39,844 nt of DNA from Parachlamydia sp. (GTDB lineage Bacteria > Chlamydiota > Chlamydiia > Chlamydiales > Parachlamydiaceae). The notes under the pieces were generated by a model. It saw only the letters and a program-made list of their open reading frames with translations, was not told the origin of the DNA and did not search any database. Shown one piece after another: positions 13,546-38,571 of the stretch (its first letter is position 1; each line of letters starts with the position of its first letter). Made by a program: the position numbers and the translations under genes. Where the stretch lies: NCBI GenBank assembly GCA_021372155.1, contig JAJFUZ010000398.1, positions 1 through 39,844 of the forward strand. The letters run 5' to 3'.

Positions 13546-13728
13546 ATGCCTCAAAAACTATCTCCCCTTAGGGCTATTAAGGCGTTTTGTCGGAACTGTA
13601 AATACGTCGTCGATGCGTGTTCGACAAGCACGTGTCCCTTGCACAAATATAGATTAGGGAAGATGCATGGACCTAAGACTAGGCACACATGGTCTAAGAC
13701 TAAGGAGGCTAAATCTGATGAAGCCTAA
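13546..13728 (+). CDS. Small zinc-ribbon-like phage protein
   Basis: 60 aa, ATG 13546 with AAAGGA six bases upstream. Motif: 'S-P-L-R-A-I-K-A-F-C-R-N-C-K-Y-V-V-D-A-C-S-T-S-T-C-P-L-H-K-Y-R-L-G', i.e. C-x2-C...C-x4-C-P-L followed by Y-R-x-G. This is a widespread small phage protein with four conserved cysteines that likely bind zinc; its function is not established. Here it precedes, and overlaps by 11 bases, the first of two methyltransferases, so it may act with them or simply share the transcript. Confidence 0.75.
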   Translation: MPQKLSPLRAIKAFCRNCKYVVDACSTSTCPLHKYRLGKMHGPKTRHTWSKTKEAKSDEA

Positions 13729-15346
13729 AAATGAAGTGAATCTTGTCTGGCCAGGTAAGGACGTATGGGAAGCTCCTGCGCCTCATGTCCTATGCGAGAA
13801 AGAGTTCTACTCCTCGCCAAAGTGGGGACTCAATGACAATCTCCTAATCTATGGAGATAACCTACTCGCCCTCAAAGCTCTTGAAAGAGACTTCACCGGG
13901 CAAGTCAAGTGTATATACATAGACCCTCCATACAACACAAAGAACAAACTCGAGCACTATGGCGATAGCTTTGGACATGGTGCATGGCTTGACATGATGA
14001 AGGAGCGGCTTGTAATCCTGCGTAGATTGCTAAAGGAAGATGGGACGATATGGATCTCGATTGATGATGAGGAATGCCATTATCTCAAGGTTCTATGCGA
14101 TGAGATCTTCGGGAGACAGAACTTTGTGGCTAATGTGATATGGGAAAAGAAATACTCCTCGCAAAATGATGCGAAGTGGCTGTCAATCAGCCATGACCAT
14201 ATTCTGGTATATGCGAAGAACAAGGTCTTAAAGAAATCGGATAAGGACAGTAAGAAAGGCCTCAAGCTATTGCCAAGAACTGCAGAGATGAATGCTCGAT
14301 ACAAGAACCCAGACAAAGACCAAAGAGGGCCCTGGATGGCTGATAACTTGACTGTAGGTATGTCTAAAGAGCAATGTCCTAATCAATATTACGCCATCAC
14401 GGACCCCGACTCTGGATGTCAATTTTGGCCCAATACAAGAAGAGTTTGGTCCTACATTCCTACTTCAATGAATAAGCTAATTCAAGCAGGGCAAATCATC
14501 TTCCGCAAGCATCCATCCGGAAGACCATTACTGAAGAGATTTTTGCCAAAAGACCCAGCAGGCGTCGCAGCTAGAACAATCTGGAAACACGAAGAAATAG
14601 AGGATAGCTCAGAAGACGAAATCCCAAGAAGAATCAATTTATTGCCAAGAACCGAAGAAATGGATGATCGCTATAGAAATCTTGATAAGGATCTTCGAGG
14701 GCCCTGGAAACCGGGAGATCTTTCTGTAAAAACATATTCTTCAGCTTGTGATTATCAGATTAAAACTCCTTCAGGACGTATAGTAGAACCTCCTCCAGGA
14801 AGATGCTGGCGAGTCTCAACCAAAAAGTTCGATGAATTGTGTCGAGACAACCGAATTTGGTTTGGACCAGAGGGCAAGAATGTCCCAAGAATAAAACGTT
14901 TTTTATCTGAGGTTCAGGATGGAAGCGTGGCTAGAACTCTCTGGTCCTATAAGGATTGCGGAAGCACCGCAGAGGCCAGAAAAGAGAGCCTCGCCCTCAA
15001 TTCGACGGATGTATTTTCTACGCCCAAGCCCGAGCGTCTTATTCAAAGAATCCTTTACCTTGCCACCAATGGAGGAGATCTAGTCCTAGATTGCTTCGCC
15101 GGCTCTGGTACAACTGGAGCTGTAGCGCATAAGATGGGGAGGCGTTGGATTATGGTTGAGCTCGGCAAGCATTGCCAAACCCACATTATACCACGTCTGC
15201 AAATGGTCCTAGATGGAACCGACCAGGGGAAGGTGAGCAAGGATTTAAGCTGGCAAGGTGGGGGAGGATTCCACTACTATGAGCTTGTCCATGAAGCAAG
15301 CGACGTAAGTGATAAGGAGCCTCTGCTAGATGAACTTCAAGGATAG
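13718..15346 (+). CDS. Adenine-specific DNA methyltransferase (beta class) with duplicated central module
   Basis: 542 aa, ATG 13718 with AAGGAGG at 13702-13708. Catalytic motif IV DPPY is at residues 69-72 (Y-I-D-P-P-Y-N-T) and SAM-binding motif I is near residues 459-466 (FAGSGTTG). The motif order IV-then-I marks the beta class, as in type III Mod and related N6-adenine enzymes. The insert between them, which should read the target, contains two tandem copies of one module. They start 'L-L-P-R-T-A-E-M-N-A-R-Y-K-N-P-D-K-D-Q-R-G-P-W' (about residue 183) and 'L-L-P-R-T-E-E-M-D-D-R-Y-R-N-L-D-K-D-L-R-G-P-W' (about 307), each ending 'K-R-F-L'. The neighbouring methyltransferase has one copy. No restriction enzyme is adjacent, so protection against host restriction is the likely role. 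Confidence 0.92.
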   Translation: MKPKNEVNLVWPGKDVWEAPAPHVLCEKEFYSSPKWGLNDNLLIYGDNLLALKALERDFTGQVKCIYIDPPYNTKNKLEHYGDSFGHGAWLDMMKERLVILRRLLKEDGTIWISIDDEECHYLKVLCDEIFGRQNFVANVIWEKKYSSQNDAKWLSISHDHILVYAKNKVLKKSDKDSKKGLKLLPRTAEMNARYKNPDKDQRGPWMADNLTVGMSKEQCPNQYYAITDPDSGCQFWPNTRRVWSYIPTSMNKLIQAGQIIFRKHPSGRPLLKRFLPKDPAGVAARTIWKHEEIEDSSEDEIPRRINLLPRTEEMDDRYRNLDKDLRGPWKPGDLSVKTYSSACDYQIKTPSGRIVEPPPGRCWRVSTKKFDELCRDNRIWFGPEGKNVPRIKRFLSEVQDGSVARTLWSYKDCGSTAEARKESLALNSTDVFSTPKPERLIQRILYLATNGGDLVLDCFAGSGTTGAVAHKMGRRWIMVELGKHCQTHIIPRLQMVLDGTDQGKVSKDLSWQGGGGFHYYELVHEASDVSDKEPLLDELQG

Positions 15347-16541
15347 CATAGAATTAATCTGGCCCGCGAAAGACAAATGGGAGCCTCTAGAGCCCCACAC
15401 TTTACTCGAAAAACAAATGTACGTATCTGGAAGGGAAGGAATAAACGATAATCTCTTGATCTATGGCGACAATTTACTTGCGATGAAGGCACTAGAGAAG
15501 GATTTTACTGGTAAAGTAAAATGCATCTATATCGATCCTCCCTACAATACCAAAAGTTGCTTCGAACACTATGACGATAGTTTTGAGCATTCCGTCTGGC
15601 TGAATATGATGAAGGAGAGACTGATTATTTTGCAGAAATTACTAAGTGAAGACGGATCGATTTGGATAAGTATTGATGATGAAGAGTGTCATTATCTGAA
15701 GGTAGTGTGCGATGAGATTTTTGGTAGAAAAAATTTTTTAGAAAACGTGATTTGGCAACATAGCGTGCAAGGGAAGGGATACTTGGGAATTTTTTCGACT
15801 CATCACAATCATATCTTATCCTACAAAAAATCGAATCTTTTCAAATTGAATTCGTGTCAAAGACTAGAAAAACACAATAAAGCCTATTCTAATCCCGACA
15901 ACGACCCAAAAGGGCCCTGGAGAACCGGTGACGTCCGCAATTCTCTATATAGAAAAAACTTAATATATGATCTAGTCACGCCATCAGGCAAAACAATCTC
16001 ACCTCCTTCAAATGGATGGAGATGGTCTAAAGAAACTATGCAAAGAAAGATCGAAACAGGTGAAATCGTCTTTCGAAACAACGAAAATAACATAATTAGA
16101 AAAATACATTTGTGCGATCAAAATGGACGAGTTCCTGAGTCAATATGGTTTGCTGATGAAGTCGGAACAACACGCGAGGCAGATAGCGAATCGAAAAAAC
16201 TTTTTGACGCAAATAACAAATTCTCGACCCCTAAGCCAGAACGCCTCATTCAACGCATCTTACACATAGCAACAAATCCGGGAGACTTGGTCCTAGACTG
16301 CTTCGCAGGGTCCGGAACAACGGGGGCGGTGGCCCACAAAATGGGCCGAAGATGGATCATGATCGAACTCGGCGAACATTGTCTCACTCATATCATCCCT
16401 CGCCTCCAGAAAGTCATCGACGGGACGGATCAAGGTGGTATAAGCGTGGCAACGAATTGGTTAGGTGGTGGGGGCTTTAGATACTACGAACTTGTCAACC
16501 AAGCATTGGAGACAAATAATATGGAGGAGCACAATGAATAA
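15330..16541 (+). CDS. Adenine-specific DNA methyltransferase (beta class), paralogue of the upstream gene
   Basis: 403 aa, ATG 15330 with AAGGAG upstream, overlapping the previous gene by 17 bases. DPPY at residues 69-72 and FAGSGTTG near 325-332, with N- and C-terminal parts closely parallel to the upstream enzyme (for example 'N-D-N-L-L-I-Y-G-D-N-L-L' in both). The central recognition region holds one copy of the 'Y-x-N-P-D-N-D-P-K-G-P-W' module instead of two, and is otherwise divergent, so a different target sequence is likely. The DNA is more AT-rich in the central part than in the flanks. Confidence 0.92.
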   Translation: MNFKDSIELIWPAKDKWEPLEPHTLLEKQMYVSGREGINDNLLIYGDNLLAMKALEKDFTGKVKCIYIDPPYNTKSCFEHYDDSFEHSVWLNMMKERLIILQKLLSEDGSIWISIDDEECHYLKVVCDEIFGRKNFLENVIWQHSVQGKGYLGIFSTHHNHILSYKKSNLFKLNSCQRLEKHNKAYSNPDNDPKGPWRTGDVRNSLYRKNLIYDLVTPSGKTISPPSNGWRWSKETMQRKIETGEIVFRNNENNIIRKIHLCDQNGRVPESIWFADEVGTTREADSESKKLFDANNKFSTPKPERLIQRILHIATNPGDLVLDCFAGSGTTGAVAHKMGRRWIMIELGEHCLTHIIPRLQKVIDGTDQGGISVATNWLGGGGFRYYELVNQALETNNMEEHNE

Positions 16542-22865: not shown

Positions 22866-23102
22866 ATGCAAGCGGAACAGATCGAATTGTTCGAGTTGAC
22901 AGAAACCGATATCCTGAAGAAAAAGATCTTCTTGTTGGAATCACAAATATCAAACTTGCGTAAAGGGATCTTCGTTCGTCACGATACCTTGTTCAAAATG
23001 TATGTTGAGATGAAGAACGAACTGGAAGATCTGAGGAAAATAGTTGCTCCCCAGAATATCGAGCCGCTAAATTGCCAGAGGATACCCTTTAAGCAATCTT
23101 AG
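22866..23102 (+). CDS. Small coiled-coil protein
   Basis: 78 aa, ATG 22866 with GAGG upstream. A leucine/isoleucine-rich coiled coil ('I-L-K-K-K-I-F-L-L-E-S-Q-I-S-N-L') followed by 'Y-V-E-M-K-N-E-L-E-D-L-R-K-I'. Shares the 'I-F-x-L-E-x-Q-I-S-x-L' phrase with the protein at 20985-21218. It ends inside the 3' end of the convergent tail-fibre gene (14-base overlap). Function unknown. Confidence 0.6.
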   Translation: MQAEQIELFELTETDILKKKIFLLESQISNLRKGIFVRHDTLFKMYVEMKNELEDLRKIVAPQNIEPLNCQRIPFKQS

Positions 23103-24237
23103 AGAACTGAACTTGGCTATGAGCCCCGGCAGCGGCTCCTATACCCATAGTCTTTGCCCCAGTACCTACTTGCACGACTATTGTCAATGTATCACCAACC
23201 GCACAGGGAACTAACCCCACGCCTGAAACTGAGAACTGAGCTCCCGCGTCTTGCAGAAGAGCAGGGTTGAATTGGGTTTGCCACCATATATCCGCGTTGC
23301 GAACTATGCGAAGGTTGCCTGCAGTTTGGCCGCCGGTGGTATTGATGAATAAAATCAACGCCGAGACAAGATAGATCCCGGCCTTTGTGCAAGTAAACGC
23401 CCCCGTTAGGGGATCGTATTCAGACTGGATGTCATAGTCAGTGGTATCGAAGAGAACTGTATAGGAAGTTAGGTCCCCGGTAACGTTCGGTATGTCCACG
23501 CTGCAATAAGCAGAAGCATTGCTATTGCTAGGGAGGGTCACAATCCCTACTGAATCTGCTTGGATGAATGGGCTGGAGACAACTGTGTTGTTAGCACTCG
23601 AAAGAAGAACCTCTCCCGCGGTTGTTGTTGCCGGATAGGTGGCCGTAGTATAGGCGGGATCGGCGGCAGCTCCCGCAGACTGCAAGATCTGGCCTGCAGA
23701 GCCTGCAGCCGTTGCGGCCATGGCAGAAGATGTCCCTTCTCCAATAATCACACCATGAGCCGTCTGTGTGCCTAATTTAGCCGCTAGGGCACTTGATGTA
23801 ACGGCATTGGCCGAGTCTGTCCCGGCAATGGCTTGAGCGTTAGTTGCTAATGTGACTACACCATTTTGGATGGTTGTAGATTGCGCAACTGTAACCTCTG
23901 CTGTCCCTGGCACAGGTTCGAAGGTGGAGACACCTTGAGTAGCATTCCCTGTGAGTGTGATTACCCCGGCTATAGGATTGACTAGATTGGCGTCATCCAA
24001 GAGAAGTTCCGCTACAGCAAGTGCTCCGCCCCCGCAATTAATCCAATAGGCAACTTTACTTACTACGCTGCCTAGAACCCAGAAGTCATTTGTAGCCGTG
24101 TTTATCCACCTAGTCCCTGGTTGGAAATGGATATCTGTTGGAAGAGGATCTCTTCTCTTGAAGACATCTTGGCCAGGGTTTGTGTAGTTTGTGCCTAGAT
24201 ATCCTGTAGGATTGTAAGAGGGGTTTTGACTACTCAT
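23089..24237 (-). CDS. Tail fibre-like protein with C1q-like C-terminal domain
   Basis: 382 aa, ATG 24237. N-terminal region (residues 28-70: 'R-R-D-P-L-P-T-D', 'P-G-T-R-W-I-N', 'F-W-V-L-G-S') resembles that of the fibre-like protein at 25646, probably the virion attachment part. The middle is Ala/Thr/Ser/Val repeat-like beta-rich. From about residue 240 a C1q/TNF-type jelly roll is suggested: 'Y-T-V-L-F-D-T-T-D-Y-D', 'A-G-I-Y-L-V-S-A-L-I-L-F', and 'V-G-D-T-L-T-I-V-V'. It likely trimerises and binds the host surface. First or last of the minus-strand tail block. Confidence 0.7.
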   Translation of the reverse strand: MSSQNPSYNPTGYLGTNYTNPGQDVFKRRDPLPTDIHFQPGTRWINTATNDFWVLGSVVSKVAYWINCGGGALAVAELLLDDANLVNPIAGVITLTGNATQGVSTFEPVPGTAEVTVAQSTTIQNGVVTLATNAQAIAGTDSANAVTSSALAAKLGTQTAHGVIIGEGTSSAMAATAAGSAGQILQSAGAAADPAYTTATYPATTTAGEVLLSSANNTVVSSPFIQADSVGIVTLPSNSNASAYCSVDIPNVTGDLTSYTVLFDTTDYDIQSEYDPLTGAFTCTKAGIYLVSALILFINTTGGQTAGNLRIVRNADIWWQTQFNPALLQDAGAQFSVSGVGLVPCAVGDTLTIVVQVGTGAKTMGIGAAAGAHSQVQFSKIA

Positions 24238-35220: not shown

Positions 35221-35280
35221 TCATGTAAACTTTGTCAAGTAATTGTTTCTCTTGCATTTCTGGACAAATTAGGAAAAATG

Positions 35281-38200
35281 ATGAGTATAACAACTACATC
35301 GTTGCTTCCAGCTCCGGTAGATGGTTGCCGAGCATAAACCCTATTTAATTGACTTGGAAACCCATATGAATGATTGGATCAATATTGAGACTCAACTACC
35401 TAGAGAGGGTGATACAATCCTGGCTAGGTTTAGAGGATGTAAAATTGGTGAGATCTTCCTTATGACCGTTCGTGAAGGCGAAGGATTAAGCCATATCATT
35501 GAGTGGAAACTCGTGGGCGACAAGGGGCAAGATTGTGGAGTATAACAACATATTGATTCTGGAAAGGAAAGGTAAGCAGATTATCTTCCTCTTAGGAAAT
35601 GGAGAAAGTCTAAGTCTAGACAATATTGTGGATGTGTTAATACACGATCAGCCTGAACGACTAAACAATGGGGGCGCTGATAAAGACGGCGCATGTGATA
35701 GTCTGAGCCACGAAAATATATAAAATCGTGGAAGATGACCCGAAGAGGTTGTCTCGCCTATTATTGAACTACATTTTCTCTAGAGTTAGTGCAGCCCTCA
35801 ATACTAGGTCAATAAAGTAACAGCACTGACAACAGTCCTTCAGCTATAAATTGCTGTCGGTACCAGTTCCCTACATGATCCACAAGATCCCGAGTGAGCT
35901 GAAAGCAATGCCACGTAATGGTGGTACGACCCTTGACATATACTAGGGGTCGATAAATCTTCTCTAATTGACTTGAAAATCTGACTGGCTATATAAGCTA
36001 AAAGATAACAAGGGGCAAGTAAATGGATTGGATATATATAAGAGATAAAAAACCAGATTATGGACAAAGAGTCATAGTTTGTAATACATATCATTGTACT
36101 TACGATGGAAAAGGAAACAAAATATCAGATTGTTACATTACCGAAGATCAATACATGGGAGACGATGGTGATTTTCCTGATGATGAACAAGGCCACAGTG
36201 CGTTTTCTGATAGTGGTTATAATGTTGAATATTGGATGCCATTACCCAATCCTCCACAGCCTGAACGTAGCAAGCGAGAAGGCCCCGAAAGGGGATGCGG
36301 TGCTCTGGACTCTATGGAAACATAGAGACTTAGGCAGAGATGACCTAAGCGCCTCTATATAAAGAGGTCAGCAAGTAACAGAATGTAGAATGAGACGATA
36401 TAACCCATTGGCTACCGCTCCGGTACCTTTGGGCAATAGTGGGATAACCCCACCTCCGCAGACATTGACATCTATTAACATAGATGCACAGATGAATTTT
36501 TACGGAACCTATATTTTGCTGAACGAGCAAGTCACTCTCCAGAATCAGGATCCCGTCCTGAACGAGGCTGCAGCAAGATTAGGGGTTTCGCTAAGACAAA
36601 CCGAAGATGAATTGATGAGAGACATGCTAGCGTCAACATCTTCTTTCATCAACTGTGTTGGTGGAACCAACGGTAGACAAGATTGGGAAATTGCCGTTGT
36701 AAAATCTTCTCTGATTGACTTGGAACTCCTCGCAGCATAGGCTAAGGATAACAAGGGGCAAGATATGATAAAAGAAGATCTTCTACAGTTTCTTAAAAAT
36801 GATAACGAGTTCGATTTTGACTTTGATTATTATTATTGGGAACTTCTAGAAAAAACAATAAATAAATTCTTTGAACAATATCAGCCTGAACGACTAAATG
36901 AGAAGACCTCGAAAGAGGATGCGATAGTCTGAACTCTATGGTGACATAGAGAGTCTGATCCGAAGAGGTCGGACCGCCACACAAGTGGTCAATAAAGTAA
37001 CAGAAAAATGGATAACCCAACCGAGATCACACGTGCAGACGTGGATACCGTCGTGAGAGCACTGAGAGGGAACAATGCGTATAGGATGAGCTTTGCGCAT
37101 TTAAAACCTTGGGTAATTGACTTGAAACTCCTCGCAGCTTAATGTGAGGAAAACAAGGGGCAAGGTTATGACAATATACGAAATTGATAGAGCTCCTCCA
37201 AAAGTGGGGGAACGAATGTTGCTATACAAAAAAGGATCAAGGTTATTTTGGTCCGGAGGGAAACACCCGATAGCACGAGCAACCTTTTTAGGATACGACT
37301 CAATTTCGAATCGACCCCTTTGGGGCGATGTAGACTTTTGGGACGAACCAACTCATTTTGAGGGAATGTCTCGAAGATACGAAGGTAAATGTTACAACCA
37401 GCCTGAACGACTAAATCCCGAGGCTCCGAATGGACTTTGATAAGACAAAAGATGAATTACTAGCAAGATTGAGATTGCTTAGAAGAGGAAGAACTGAAGA
37501 TACAGAGCCAGCATCAGTTGCAGAGGCAATTGATTGCCTAATCTCAAGCGTAGAGTTCGTCTTAAAGAACTATGATCCAAAAAGTCCACTAGGAGATGCG
37601 ATAGTCTGAACAACGCGTATAGATAAATGCGTTGAGGAGGTGCCGAAGAGCCCTCCCGCCAACTATTCGGAATTTCCGAAGTGTTGGTCATAAAAGTAAC
37701 AGAATTGATAGTTTCTTATCAGGTGTTGAAGGTGAGAATAAATTCGGCACAGCACCGGTACGTGACGCCTACTTTGGCCTTGGATCAACTGACCTGATTG
37801 GCCAAATTGACCAGTGTCAAGGATTTATTCAAAAGTGGTCATACCCCAATCAACAGAGCACTTTGGATGCAGAATGGGGCACCGTTTCGAATGTAAGATT
37901 TCTCTTAAGTTCGATCGGTAGCGTAACTCCGAACGCATCTTTGCTTGGAAATAGTGTTTACAATATCTTCATCCAGGGAAGAGAAGCGACCGCTAGTATA
38001 GAACAGGACGGGTATTCGGCACAATTCAAATACCGTAAAGAGTGTGCGGTATCAAAATCTTTTCTAATTGACTTGGAGCTCCTCGAGGCTGCTTGAGGAA
38101 AACAAGGGGCAAGATCATGAAATGGACTCACATAATGGACGGACAACCTGAAGATGGCGAAGAAATCGTACAGGTTAATCCTGAATACGAAGGCCATCAT

Positions 38201-38571
38201 TGTATGGGGCAACGCACATATAGCAAGTATTGTCCATTCGATGTGGTGGTTAAATATTATCGAGATAATGACTTAGGGGATCCAAATTTTTGGTGGATTT
38301 CTGCTAAGAATTTTCCATTTCCAGATCAGCCTGAACGACTTAACGAAAAGACCCCGAAAGGGGATGCGCAAGTCTGAACTCATAGGCAACTATGAGAGAG
38401 TGGATCGAAGAATCTGCTCCGCCTAGGAAACTAGGTCATACAAGTAACAGAATGCCACCTATTTATGATTCGCCCTTAGCCCTGAATGCATCGTGCGGAT
38501 ATACGTTCGCGGAAGTGCCCAGGATATTGAACGATACATGGCTCTTTAATTTACGCTGCACGTTAGCATAG
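35281..38571 (+). CDS. Major capsid protein, N4-gp56 family, split by five group I introns
   Basis: Exons 35281-35318, 35829-35933, 36386-36674, 37011-37080, 37708-38036 and 38455-38571 join into 948 nt, 315 aa. The joined protein is continuous with the N4-gp56 capsid pattern: 'T-T-T-S-L-L-P-A-P-V', 'R-R-Y-N-P-L', 'G-N-S-G-I-T-P-P-P-Q', 'L-N-E-Q-V-T-L-Q-N-Q-D-P-V-L-N-E', 'F-G-T-A-P-V-R-D-A-Y-F', 'S-S-I-G-S', 'P-P-I-Y-D-S-P-L-A-L-N-A-S', and 'L-R-C-T-L-A' at the end. The second of two tandem ATGs (35281) is preferred because AGGA lies six bases upstream. Without splicing every exon runs into stop codons within the introns. Exon 4 has only 70 nt. Neighbours (scaffold before, FCCH-like virion protein after) agree with a capsid gene. 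Confidence 0.93.
35366..35545 (+). CDS. DUF551-like intron-encoded protein (intron 1, P2 loop)
   Basis: 59 aa, ATG 35366. 'W-I-N-I-E-T-Q-L-P-R-E-G-D-T-I-L-A-R-F' has the W-I-x-x-x-x-x-L-P-x-x-G-x-x-I/V-L opening of DUF551 phage proteins, then 'I-I-E-W-K-L-V' where DUF551 has its W-x-P-L-P end. It lies in the loop of P2, unlike the other intron ORFs, and runs through the AAGGGGCAAG core segment to its stop. No RBS is obvious. Confidence 0.55.
   Translation: MNDWINIETQLPREGDTILARFRGCKIGEIFLMTVREGEGLSHIIEWKLVGDKGQDCGV
35535..35723 (+). CDS. Intron-encoded small protein (intron 1, second ORF)
   Basis: 62 aa from GTG 35535. The core segment GACAAGGGGCAAG (35519-35531) lies just before the start and can act as its Shine-Dalgarno site, as in the other introns. 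Sequence: 'N-I-L-I-L-E-R-K-G-K-Q-I-I-F-L-L', then 'H-D-Q-P-E-R-L-N-N', encoded by the P7-forming segment. Not a recognised endonuclease. The start overlaps the end of the ORF at 35366. Confidence 0.45.
   Translation: MEYNNILILERKGKQIIFLLGNGESLSLDNIVDVLIHDQPERLNNGGADKDGACDSLSHENI
35934..36385 (+). ncRNA. Group I intron 2 (452 nt)
   Basis: 5' junction after U35933. Guide GGGGTCG (35946-35952) pairs over 7 bp with CGACCCU, including the U-G pair. P2 ATCT (35979-35982) with AGAT (36003-36006). P7 here differs in sequence: AGCA (36269-36272) with TGCT (36301-36304), a double-sided change from GACTA/TAGTC that preserves pairing. P8 is CCCC-GAAA-GGGG, P9 CTCTATG/CATAGAG. Ends in G36385. The joined codons are ACC-CT|T-AGA. 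Confidence 0.92.
36023..36325 (+). CDS. DUF551-like intron-encoded protein (intron 2)
   Basis: 100 aa, ATG 36023, directly behind the core segment AACAAGGGGCAAG (36007-36019). Opens 'M-D-W-I-Y-I-R-D-K-K-P-D-Y-G-Q-R-V-I-V' and has 'Y-W-M-P-L-P-N-P-P-Q-P-E-R', the DUF551 terminal W-M-P-L-P signature. The Q-P-E-R residues fall on the segment before P7, so protein end and ribozyme core share bases. The tail past Q-P-E-R (Gly/Arg-rich) reads through P8. Function unknown. Confidence 0.7.
   Translation: MDWIYIRDKKPDYGQRVIVCNTYHCTYDGKGNKISDCYITEDQYMGDDGDFPDDEQGHSAFSDSGYNVEYWMPLPNPPQPERSKREGPERGCGALDSMET
36675..37010 (+). ncRNA. Group I intron 3 (336 nt)
   Basis: 5' junction after U36674. Guide GCCGTTG (36693-36699) pairs fully with CAACGGU. 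P2 TCCT (36727-36730) with AGGA (36745-36748). P7 GACTA (36892-36896) with TAGTC (36925-36929). P8 CCTC-GAAA-GAGG, P9 CTCTAT/ATAGAG, and a terminal CCAC/GTGG hairpin. Ends in G37010. Smallest of the five; restores GGT|GAT. Confidence 0.92.
36765..36932 (+). CDS. Intron-encoded acidic small protein (intron 3)
   Basis: 55 aa, ATG 36765, four bases after the AACAAGGGGCAAG core segment (36749-36761). Very acidic and aromatic ('N-E-F-D-F-D-F-D-Y-Y-Y-W-E-L-L-E-K'), then 'Q-Y-Q-P-E-R-L-N-E-K'. The stop is the TGA of the conserved AGTCTGA at P7. It lacks the DUF551 opening and may be a reduced or different ORF. Confidence 0.5.
   Translation: MIKEDLLQFLKNDNEFDFDFDYYYWELLEKTINKFFEQYQPERLNEKTSKEDAIV
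37168..37440 (+). CDS. DUF551-like intron-encoded protein (intron 4, first ORF)
   Basis: 90 aa, ATG 37168, directly behind AACAAGGGGCAAG (37152-37164). 'M-T-I-Y-E-I-D-R-A-P-P-K-V-G-E-R-M-L-L-Y' has the P-P-x-x-G-E-x-x-L opening of DUF551-type proteins, with 'F-W-D-E-P-T-H' and a C-terminal 'N-Q-P-E-R-L-N'. Overlaps the next ORF by 11 bases. Function unknown. Confidence 0.6.
   Translation: MTIYEIDRAPPKVGERMLLYKKGSRLFWSGGKHPIARATFLGYDSISNRPLWGDVDFWDEPTHFEGMSRRYEGKCYNQPERLNPEAPNGL
37430..37609 (+). CDS. Intron-encoded small protein in the P8 loop (intron 4, second ORF)
   Basis: 59 aa, ATG 37430. Helical: 'K-T-K-D-E-L-L-A-R-L-R-L-L-R-R-G-R', then 'V-A-E-A-I-D-C-L-I-S-S-V-E-F-V-L-K'. The stop is the TGA of AGTCTGA. 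The only ORF of the five introns placed in P8, so likely a separate insertion event. Not recognised. Confidence 0.55.
   Translation: MDFDKTKDELLARLRLLRRGRTEDTEPASVAEAIDCLISSVEFVLKNYDPKSPLGDAIV
38037..38454 (+). ncRNA. Group I intron 5 (418 nt)
   Basis: 5' junction after U38036. Guide GCGGTA (38046-38051) pairs with TACCGU. P2 TCCTC (38080-38084) with GAGGA (38095-38099). P7 GACTT (38337-38341) with AAGTC (38370-38374), a compensatory change against introns 1, 3 and 4. P8 CCCC-GAAA-GGGG, P9 CTCATAG/CTATGAG, then CCTAG/CTAGG. Ends in G38454, restoring CGT|CCA. Confidence 0.92.
38117..38377 (+). CDS. DUF551-like intron-encoded protein (intron 5)
   Basis: 86 aa, ATG 38117, directly behind AACAAGGGGCAAG (38101-38113). 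'M-K-W-T-H-I-M-D-G-Q-P-E-D-G-E-E-I-V-Q-V' and 'N-F-W-W-I-S-A-K-N-F-P-F-P-D-Q-P-E-R-L-N-E-K' match the DUF551 opening and its W-x...P-F-P region. Stop is the TGA of the P7-associated AGTCTGA. Function unknown; no HNH, GIY-YIG or LAGLIDADG pattern. Confidence 0.6.
   Translation: MKWTHIMDGQPEDGEEIVQVNPEYEGHHCMGQRTYSKYCPFDVVVKYYRDNDLGDPNFWWISAKNFPFPDQPERLNEKTPKGDAQV

Follow-up and report, generated by a model that had tools for sequence, protein, structure and literature searches.

A major capsid gene of a small phage interrupted by five probable group I introns

The capsid gene yields one family protein once five inserts are removed

Does a phage capsid gene that spans 3291 nt still encode a working protein, and if so, what are the five inserts that divide it? 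If they are introns, the most abundant virion protein of a 40-kb phage would need five RNA splicing events in a short infection. The window, meaning the whole stretch of DNA analysed (39.8 kb), corresponds to the complete contig C388 in a metagenome bin of 4.0 Mb; since 8% of that bin is contamination, the host was not taken from bin membership. Genes for a P22-type portal, a terminase, a DnaB helicase, a RecT-like protein and two DNA methylases mark the window as a phage of about 40 kb. Two overlapping open reading frames (ORFs) at 13667-16541 each match the N6_N4_Mtase DNA methylase family, and a phage ORF on the minus strand (23089-24237) matches a C1q domain (E 2e-6).

The capsid gene, of the N4-gp56 type, lies at 35281-38571 on the plus strand and consists of six exons and five inserts. 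An earlier note, made from the sequence alone, had proposed a 948-nt coding sequence spread over these 3291 nt, and its insert lengths (510, 452, 336, 627 and 418 nt) and coordinates proved exact. Removal of 35319-35828, 35934-36385, 36675-37010, 37081-37707 and 38037-38454 leaves a 948-nt frame of 315 codons plus stop, with no frameshift and no internal stop. The spliced protein scored 123.9 bits against NCBIfam TIGR04387 'N4-gp56 family major capsid protein' (cut-off 60), with a match covering positions 1-320 of 324, which places it within the N4-gp56 family. It also matched PHROG 1357 'major head protein' (E 6e-22). The exons, all on the plus strand and placed by spliced alignment and intronless relatives, are as follows.

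35281-35318, plus: exon 1, 38 nt, with ATG at 35281 (an alternative ATG at 35278 is possible as start)
35829-35933, plus: exon 2, 105 nt
36386-36674, plus: exon 3, 289 nt
37011-37080, plus: exon 4, 70 nt
37708-38036, plus: exon 5, 329 nt
38455-38571, plus: exon 6, 117 nt with the stop codon

Codon-position constraint was seen in all six exons, with 53-65% differences at third positions and 3-15% at second positions. In every exon compared with relatives, third-position differences were at least four times as frequent as second-position differences. This excess argues that the gene is under selection as a protein.

Empty sites and shared insertion sites define the exon boundaries

A scan of IMG/VR returned 80 relatives. 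In about 40 of them the gene is uninterrupted, at 70-89% amino acid identity. The spliced window DNA aligned with 14 intronless relatives free of gaps at all five junctions, and a purpose-written spliced-alignment program, which required only a U before each insert and a G at its end, gave ten boundaries identical to those of the earlier note. One further locus (L036:5001-5946) carries a one-base frameshift, possibly a sequencing error, in an otherwise uninterrupted capsid gene.

The inserts follow nucleotides 38, 143, 432, 502 and 831 of the spliced gene. An intron at nt 38 was also present in L045, L047 and L250, at nt 143 in L065 and L286, at nt 432 in many other phages, at nt 502 in L075, and at nt 831 in L141 and L327. 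Since each site is occupied, to the exact nucleotide, in one or more further phages, the five inserts are not an assembly artefact. The related phage contig L286 (CAIYHQ010000095.1) was binned in a Methanomicrobiales genome; bin membership is no proof of host.

Covariation and guide pairing point to group I introns

Stop codons lie in the exon frame within the inserts, the first at intron position 11-64, which rules out inteins (protein splicing). Over 118 introns, in-frame stops cluster in the P5 loop; we make no claim of a special role for them, as the clustering may just follow core conservation.

The earlier note had proposed the Rfam model RF00028 (cut-off 50 bits) as a check. We ran it on the window and on relatives, and it gave no match to the window inserts up to E=10. 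The same model left known introns below its cut-off (Tuc2009 43.2, T4 nrdB 35.7, LittleE 30.7 and Baka 28.6 bits) and gave no match to the T4 td intron. As known introns fail this model too, its miss is uninformative and does not count against the window introns. Elsewhere in the assembly, a group I-like match of 43 bits, below the cut-off, lies at G000:C75:3423-3617 on the minus strand (L001), a locus that also holds tRNA-Arg and tRNA-Met genes and has no match to the model described next.

We built a covariance model, R1, from eight introns of other phages, all without endonuclease and none taken from the window. Each of the five inserts was matched by R1, with a top score of 142.9 bits (E=6e-35), and the rest of the 39.8-kb window and of the 4.0-Mb assembly gave no match. 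In ORF-bearing introns the two halves were usually matched separately. Across 45 kb of T4 DNA, R1 matched only the nrdD and nrdB introns (17.9 and 14.5 bits) and missed td; in LittleE, Baka and Tuc2009 DNA its matches fell only at the annotated introns (LittleE 22.7 bits, Baka 20.7 bits).

The conserved core of P3, P4, P6, P7 and P8 was recovered with P3 and P7 in pseudoknot order, and covariation was seen for P3, P7, P4 and P8. Over about 107 distinct cores, P7 was canonical in 100% of those that could be scored (about 98), with 47 doubly changed cells and three covarying pairs; its first pair, at the guanosine-binding site, was an invariant G-C in 98 of 98 cores. P3 was 97% canonical (176 doubly changed cells) and P8 96% (118 doubly changed cells) over 107 cores, where the doubly changed cells are not independent events because the introns are related to each other. 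When one strand was slid by one or two columns as a control, canonical pairing fell to 51-59% for P3, 23-41% for P7 and 32-42% for P8.

The boundaries carry the expected bases. All five introns follow a U and end in G, as the earlier note had said; the aligners preferred or required these bases and so are not alone independent evidence for them, and the intronless relatives fix the place within a few bases. A P1 helix of at least 6 bp formed in 83% of 118 introns, compared with 6.3% when exons were shuffled among introns. In the window, the guide sequence pairs with the 5' exon, including the U.G at the splice site, over 7 bp in introns 2 to 5. The pairing claimed in the earlier note thus stands for these four; intron 1 has four contiguous pairs, or seven with one bulged C (by eye), so that a bulge interrupts its P1. 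With the core, the guide pairing and the comparison with proven phage introns in agreement, the earlier reading of five group I introns in a capsid gene is borne out, and we put the probability that all five inserts are group I introns and that the exon-intron map is correct at about 95%. The introns and the landmarks of intron 3 are listed below.

35319-35828, plus: group I intron 1, 510 nt, site nt 38; R1 match 35582-35754, 34.6 bits
35934-36385, plus: group I intron 2, 452 nt, site nt 143; R1 matches 35955-36054 and 36248-36349
36675-37010, plus: group I intron 3, 336 nt, site nt 432; R1 match 36702-36974, the best match given above
36693-36700, plus: intron 3 internal guide sequence GCCGUUGU (3' strand of P1)
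36705-36711, plus: intron 3 P3 5' strand UCUUCUC, pairing with GAGAAGA at 36900-36906
36892-36896, plus: intron 3 P7 5' strand GACUA (guanosine site), pairing with UAGUC at 36925-36929
37081-37707, plus: group I intron 4, 627 nt, site nt 502; R1 matches 37104-37254 and 37566-37656, with an additional weak match 37353-37443
38037-38454, plus: group I intron 5, 418 nt, site nt 831; R1 matches 38055-38181 and 38225-38419 (73.2 bits)

P3, P7 and P8 are paired in intron 1, and P7 of intron 2 is paired via compensatory changes. A single-sequence fold of intron 3 yields P3, P4, P5, P6 and P8. P3 and P7 of intron 4 are gapped in the automatic alignment and were paired by eye using the R motif at 37404.

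The introns carry small ORFs and no recognisable endonuclease gene

Seven small ORFs lie within the five introns, two each in introns 1 (L5 and L6) and 4 (L6 and L8).

35366-35545, plus: small ORF 1a, P5 loop of intron 1, MNDWINIETQLPREG..., DUF551-like by eye, no Pfam match
35535-35723, plus: small ORF 1b, P6 loop of intron 1, GTG start after AAGGGG
36023-36325, plus: DUF551 ORF, P6 loop of intron 2, Pfam DUF551 E=1.5e-7
36765-36932, plus: small ORF, P6 loop of intron 3, extending into the core
37168-37440, plus: small ORF 4a, L6 of intron 4, no Pfam match
37430-37609, plus: small ORF 4b, L8 of intron 4, no Pfam match
38117-38377, plus: small ORF, P6 loop of intron 5, DUF551-like by eye, no Pfam match

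Pfam detected no endonuclease among the six ORFs scanned (all but ORF 1b), and in this respect the window introns do not conform to mobile group I introns, which carry a homing endonuclease. Content followed length in a subset of the sampled capsid genes: introns below 300 nt had essentially no ORF; between about 300 and 640 nt, the class of the window introns, most held a small ORF, as a rule in the P6 loop; and above 650 nt almost every intron had a LAGLIDADG-type frame on one strand or the other. We scanned six full-length frames of this type, and each matched one of Pfam's LAGLIDADG families; two scores exceeded the curated cut-off, and the other four fell short of it. Some of these long introns of relatives occupy the same sites as window introns.

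DUF551 was considered as a general identity of the small ORFs and rejected, with matches in only 3 of 29. Pairs of small ORFs from different sites and phages were 47-66% identical, with dN of 0.2-0.5 and dS high or saturated, which argues that at least some of them are real proteins travelling with or between introns. The ORFs starting at 35535, 36023, 36765, 37168 and 38117 begin 6-7 nt after the AAGGGG of the P4/P6 core strand, and this core stretch may double as their ribosome site. A broader proposal, which we hold to be speculative and quite unlikely as a whole, is that a group I family unseen by Rfam repeatedly invades the head genes of many small environmental phages, and that those members without an endonuclease house small conserved proteins, some of them DUF551, in their ribozyme loops. 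With AAGGGG as the ribosome site, a capsid message could either be spliced or have its cargo translated, but not both, which would time or limit capsid production. Homologous small ORFs (Cys-rich and others) with a purifying pattern were also observed at different sites in introns of L080, L111, L106, L129, L054, L060, L125 and L150.

Proposed splicing, its alternatives and the origin of the introns

In the proposed mechanism, exogenous GTP would attack after the exon U, and the freed exon would then attack after the intron's terminal G. Five such events would yield the 945-nt coding sequence. Judging from sequence comparison, all five introns are likely to splice in the cell, and we infer that virion assembly would depend on five self-splicing events. 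Some of these group I introns may splice poorly on their own, or only with help from a protein of the host or phage, such as an intron-borne small protein, so that splicing limits or regulates capsid production. The bulged P1 of intron 1 and the conserved small ORFs within the introns would suit such a case, and group I splicing is known to be assisted by proteins of the host and of introns (PMC3984707). Yet the tested core helices are paired in all five introns (intron 4 by eye), and none of the window's proteins has a known role in assisting splicing; we regard this variant as unlikely, though deserving of serious consideration. Far less credible is a decaying pseudogene or an assembly chimera, with a second, intact capsid gene serving the virion. 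It would explain why an essential gene bears the heavy load of five interruptions, on a contig from a contaminated bin. But it must also accommodate codon-position constraint in every exon, a spliced frame without frameshift or stop, the same insertion nucleotides in independent assemblies and a full protein above the TIGR04387 cut-off, and we consider it almost certainly wrong.

The presence of the same core motifs in all five introns could also reflect repeated copying of one intron within this genome. A core tree, which rests on a short alignment and is weak, places the window introns nearest to introns of other phages, and same-phage pairs were no closer than random pairs (means 0.93 and 0.86), which favours separate acquisition over copying within the gene. 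We therefore consider copying very unlikely; the five introns, members of one family, were probably acquired separately, and their sequences suggest that they are probably related to the phage introns of T4 nrdB and nrdD, Tuc2009 and LittleE. As the introns of relatives suggest, separate acquisition may have proceeded by endonuclease-driven homing. The window introns look like endonuclease-free forms, now with small non-nuclease ORFs in their peripheral loops. We infer both this homing history and any role of the small ORFs. The capsid intron family would thus offer a natural experiment on intron spread, endonuclease loss and cargo gain.

Five introns in one gene extend a known pattern

We counted introns in 194 distinct capsid genes of relatives: 89 had none, 58 one, 24 two, 15 three, 6 four and 2 five. 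Five is the maximum in this sample, which is biased: the intron motif itself served to retrieve part of the loci, and the protein scans retained the genes with the highest scores, which are less interrupted. L286 adds one gene with three introns (nt 143, 350 and 824). The other gene with five introns belongs to L172 (IMGVR_UViG_3300044697_000087), where the inserts sit at other positions (about nt 182, 255, 328, 501 and 808) and all match R1, one of them with a LAGLIDADG gene; for distant relatives such as this one (about 40% identity), the counts rest on R1 matches too and boundaries may be off. About 55 insertion sites are used in the capsid genes, with sites within 3 nt merged and some assigned approximately.

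Several introns per phage gene have precedents. In the crAss-like Zeta group phage OLRF01000054, the capsid gene likewise lies in several pieces (five fragments), and three of its four interruptions have group I intron-type domains (PMC7886860). It differs in having four interruptions, in that the introns were recognised via endonuclease domains, and in being an unrelated, larger phage. Twort orf142 and the polymerase and terminase genes of Bastillevirinae also hold several group I introns each, mostly IA-like (PMC11878797), but at most three per gene, outside capsid genes and mostly with homing nucleases. Jug phages average 18.5 group I introns per genome, with splicing supported by metatranscriptomes for 37 of 76 (PMC12363816). 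The earlier statement that five introns lie far beyond the one to three usual in phage genes was therefore overstated, given the published five-fragment capsid gene and the genes with three, four and five introns counted here. A literature query on intron number returned nothing; five in a 948-nt gene is the highest number that we found for a phage gene in the open-licence literature, and it extends the known pattern.

Capsid introns were already known in LittleE and Tuc2009 (PMC3706429). The LittleE capsid intron and the Baka tail intron, from Cluster J mycobacteriophages, are group I introns with U before and G at the end, as in the window, and their splicing was demonstrated by RT-PCR (PMC3706429). 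A LAGLIDADG-like frame lies antisense in the LittleE intron. Both introns differ from the window in occurring once per gene, and their R1 scores show only a distant relation. The Tuc2009 mp4 intron, from a Lactococcus phage, is likewise a group I intron in a capsid gene and is matched by R1, but it is single and comes with an HNH gene. The T4 nrdB and nrdD introns (group IA) share the R and S core motifs of the window introns, but occur once per gene, in nucleotide-metabolism genes, with I-TevII (GIY-YIG) and a defective I-TevIII (HNH), and score weakly with R1. Within the open-licence literature search, we found neither this family of introns, nor such a concentration of it in a single gene of small phages, nor the non-nuclease ORFs that it carries, described in PMC3706429, PMC11878797, PMC7886860 or PMC12363816. 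Standard annotation (Rfam RF00028, ORF callers) misses such genes, and the capsid genes of many environmental phages may stand recorded as fragments or as missing.

The same intron core was found in unrelated phages, in P22-like coat genes (PHROG 283), other major head proteins (PHROG 9953, 1328 and 4523) and portals (PHROG 156). A possible preference of the family for head genes is a lead. The closest match among isolates was in a Desulfovibrio phage, adjoining an apparent anaerobic ribonucleotide reductase gene. Members of the family also occur two or three to a locus in P22-like coat genes, and in or adjoining portal genes (L101, L137, L207, L212, L103, L107, L142; L054:193-360, L143, L148, L160).
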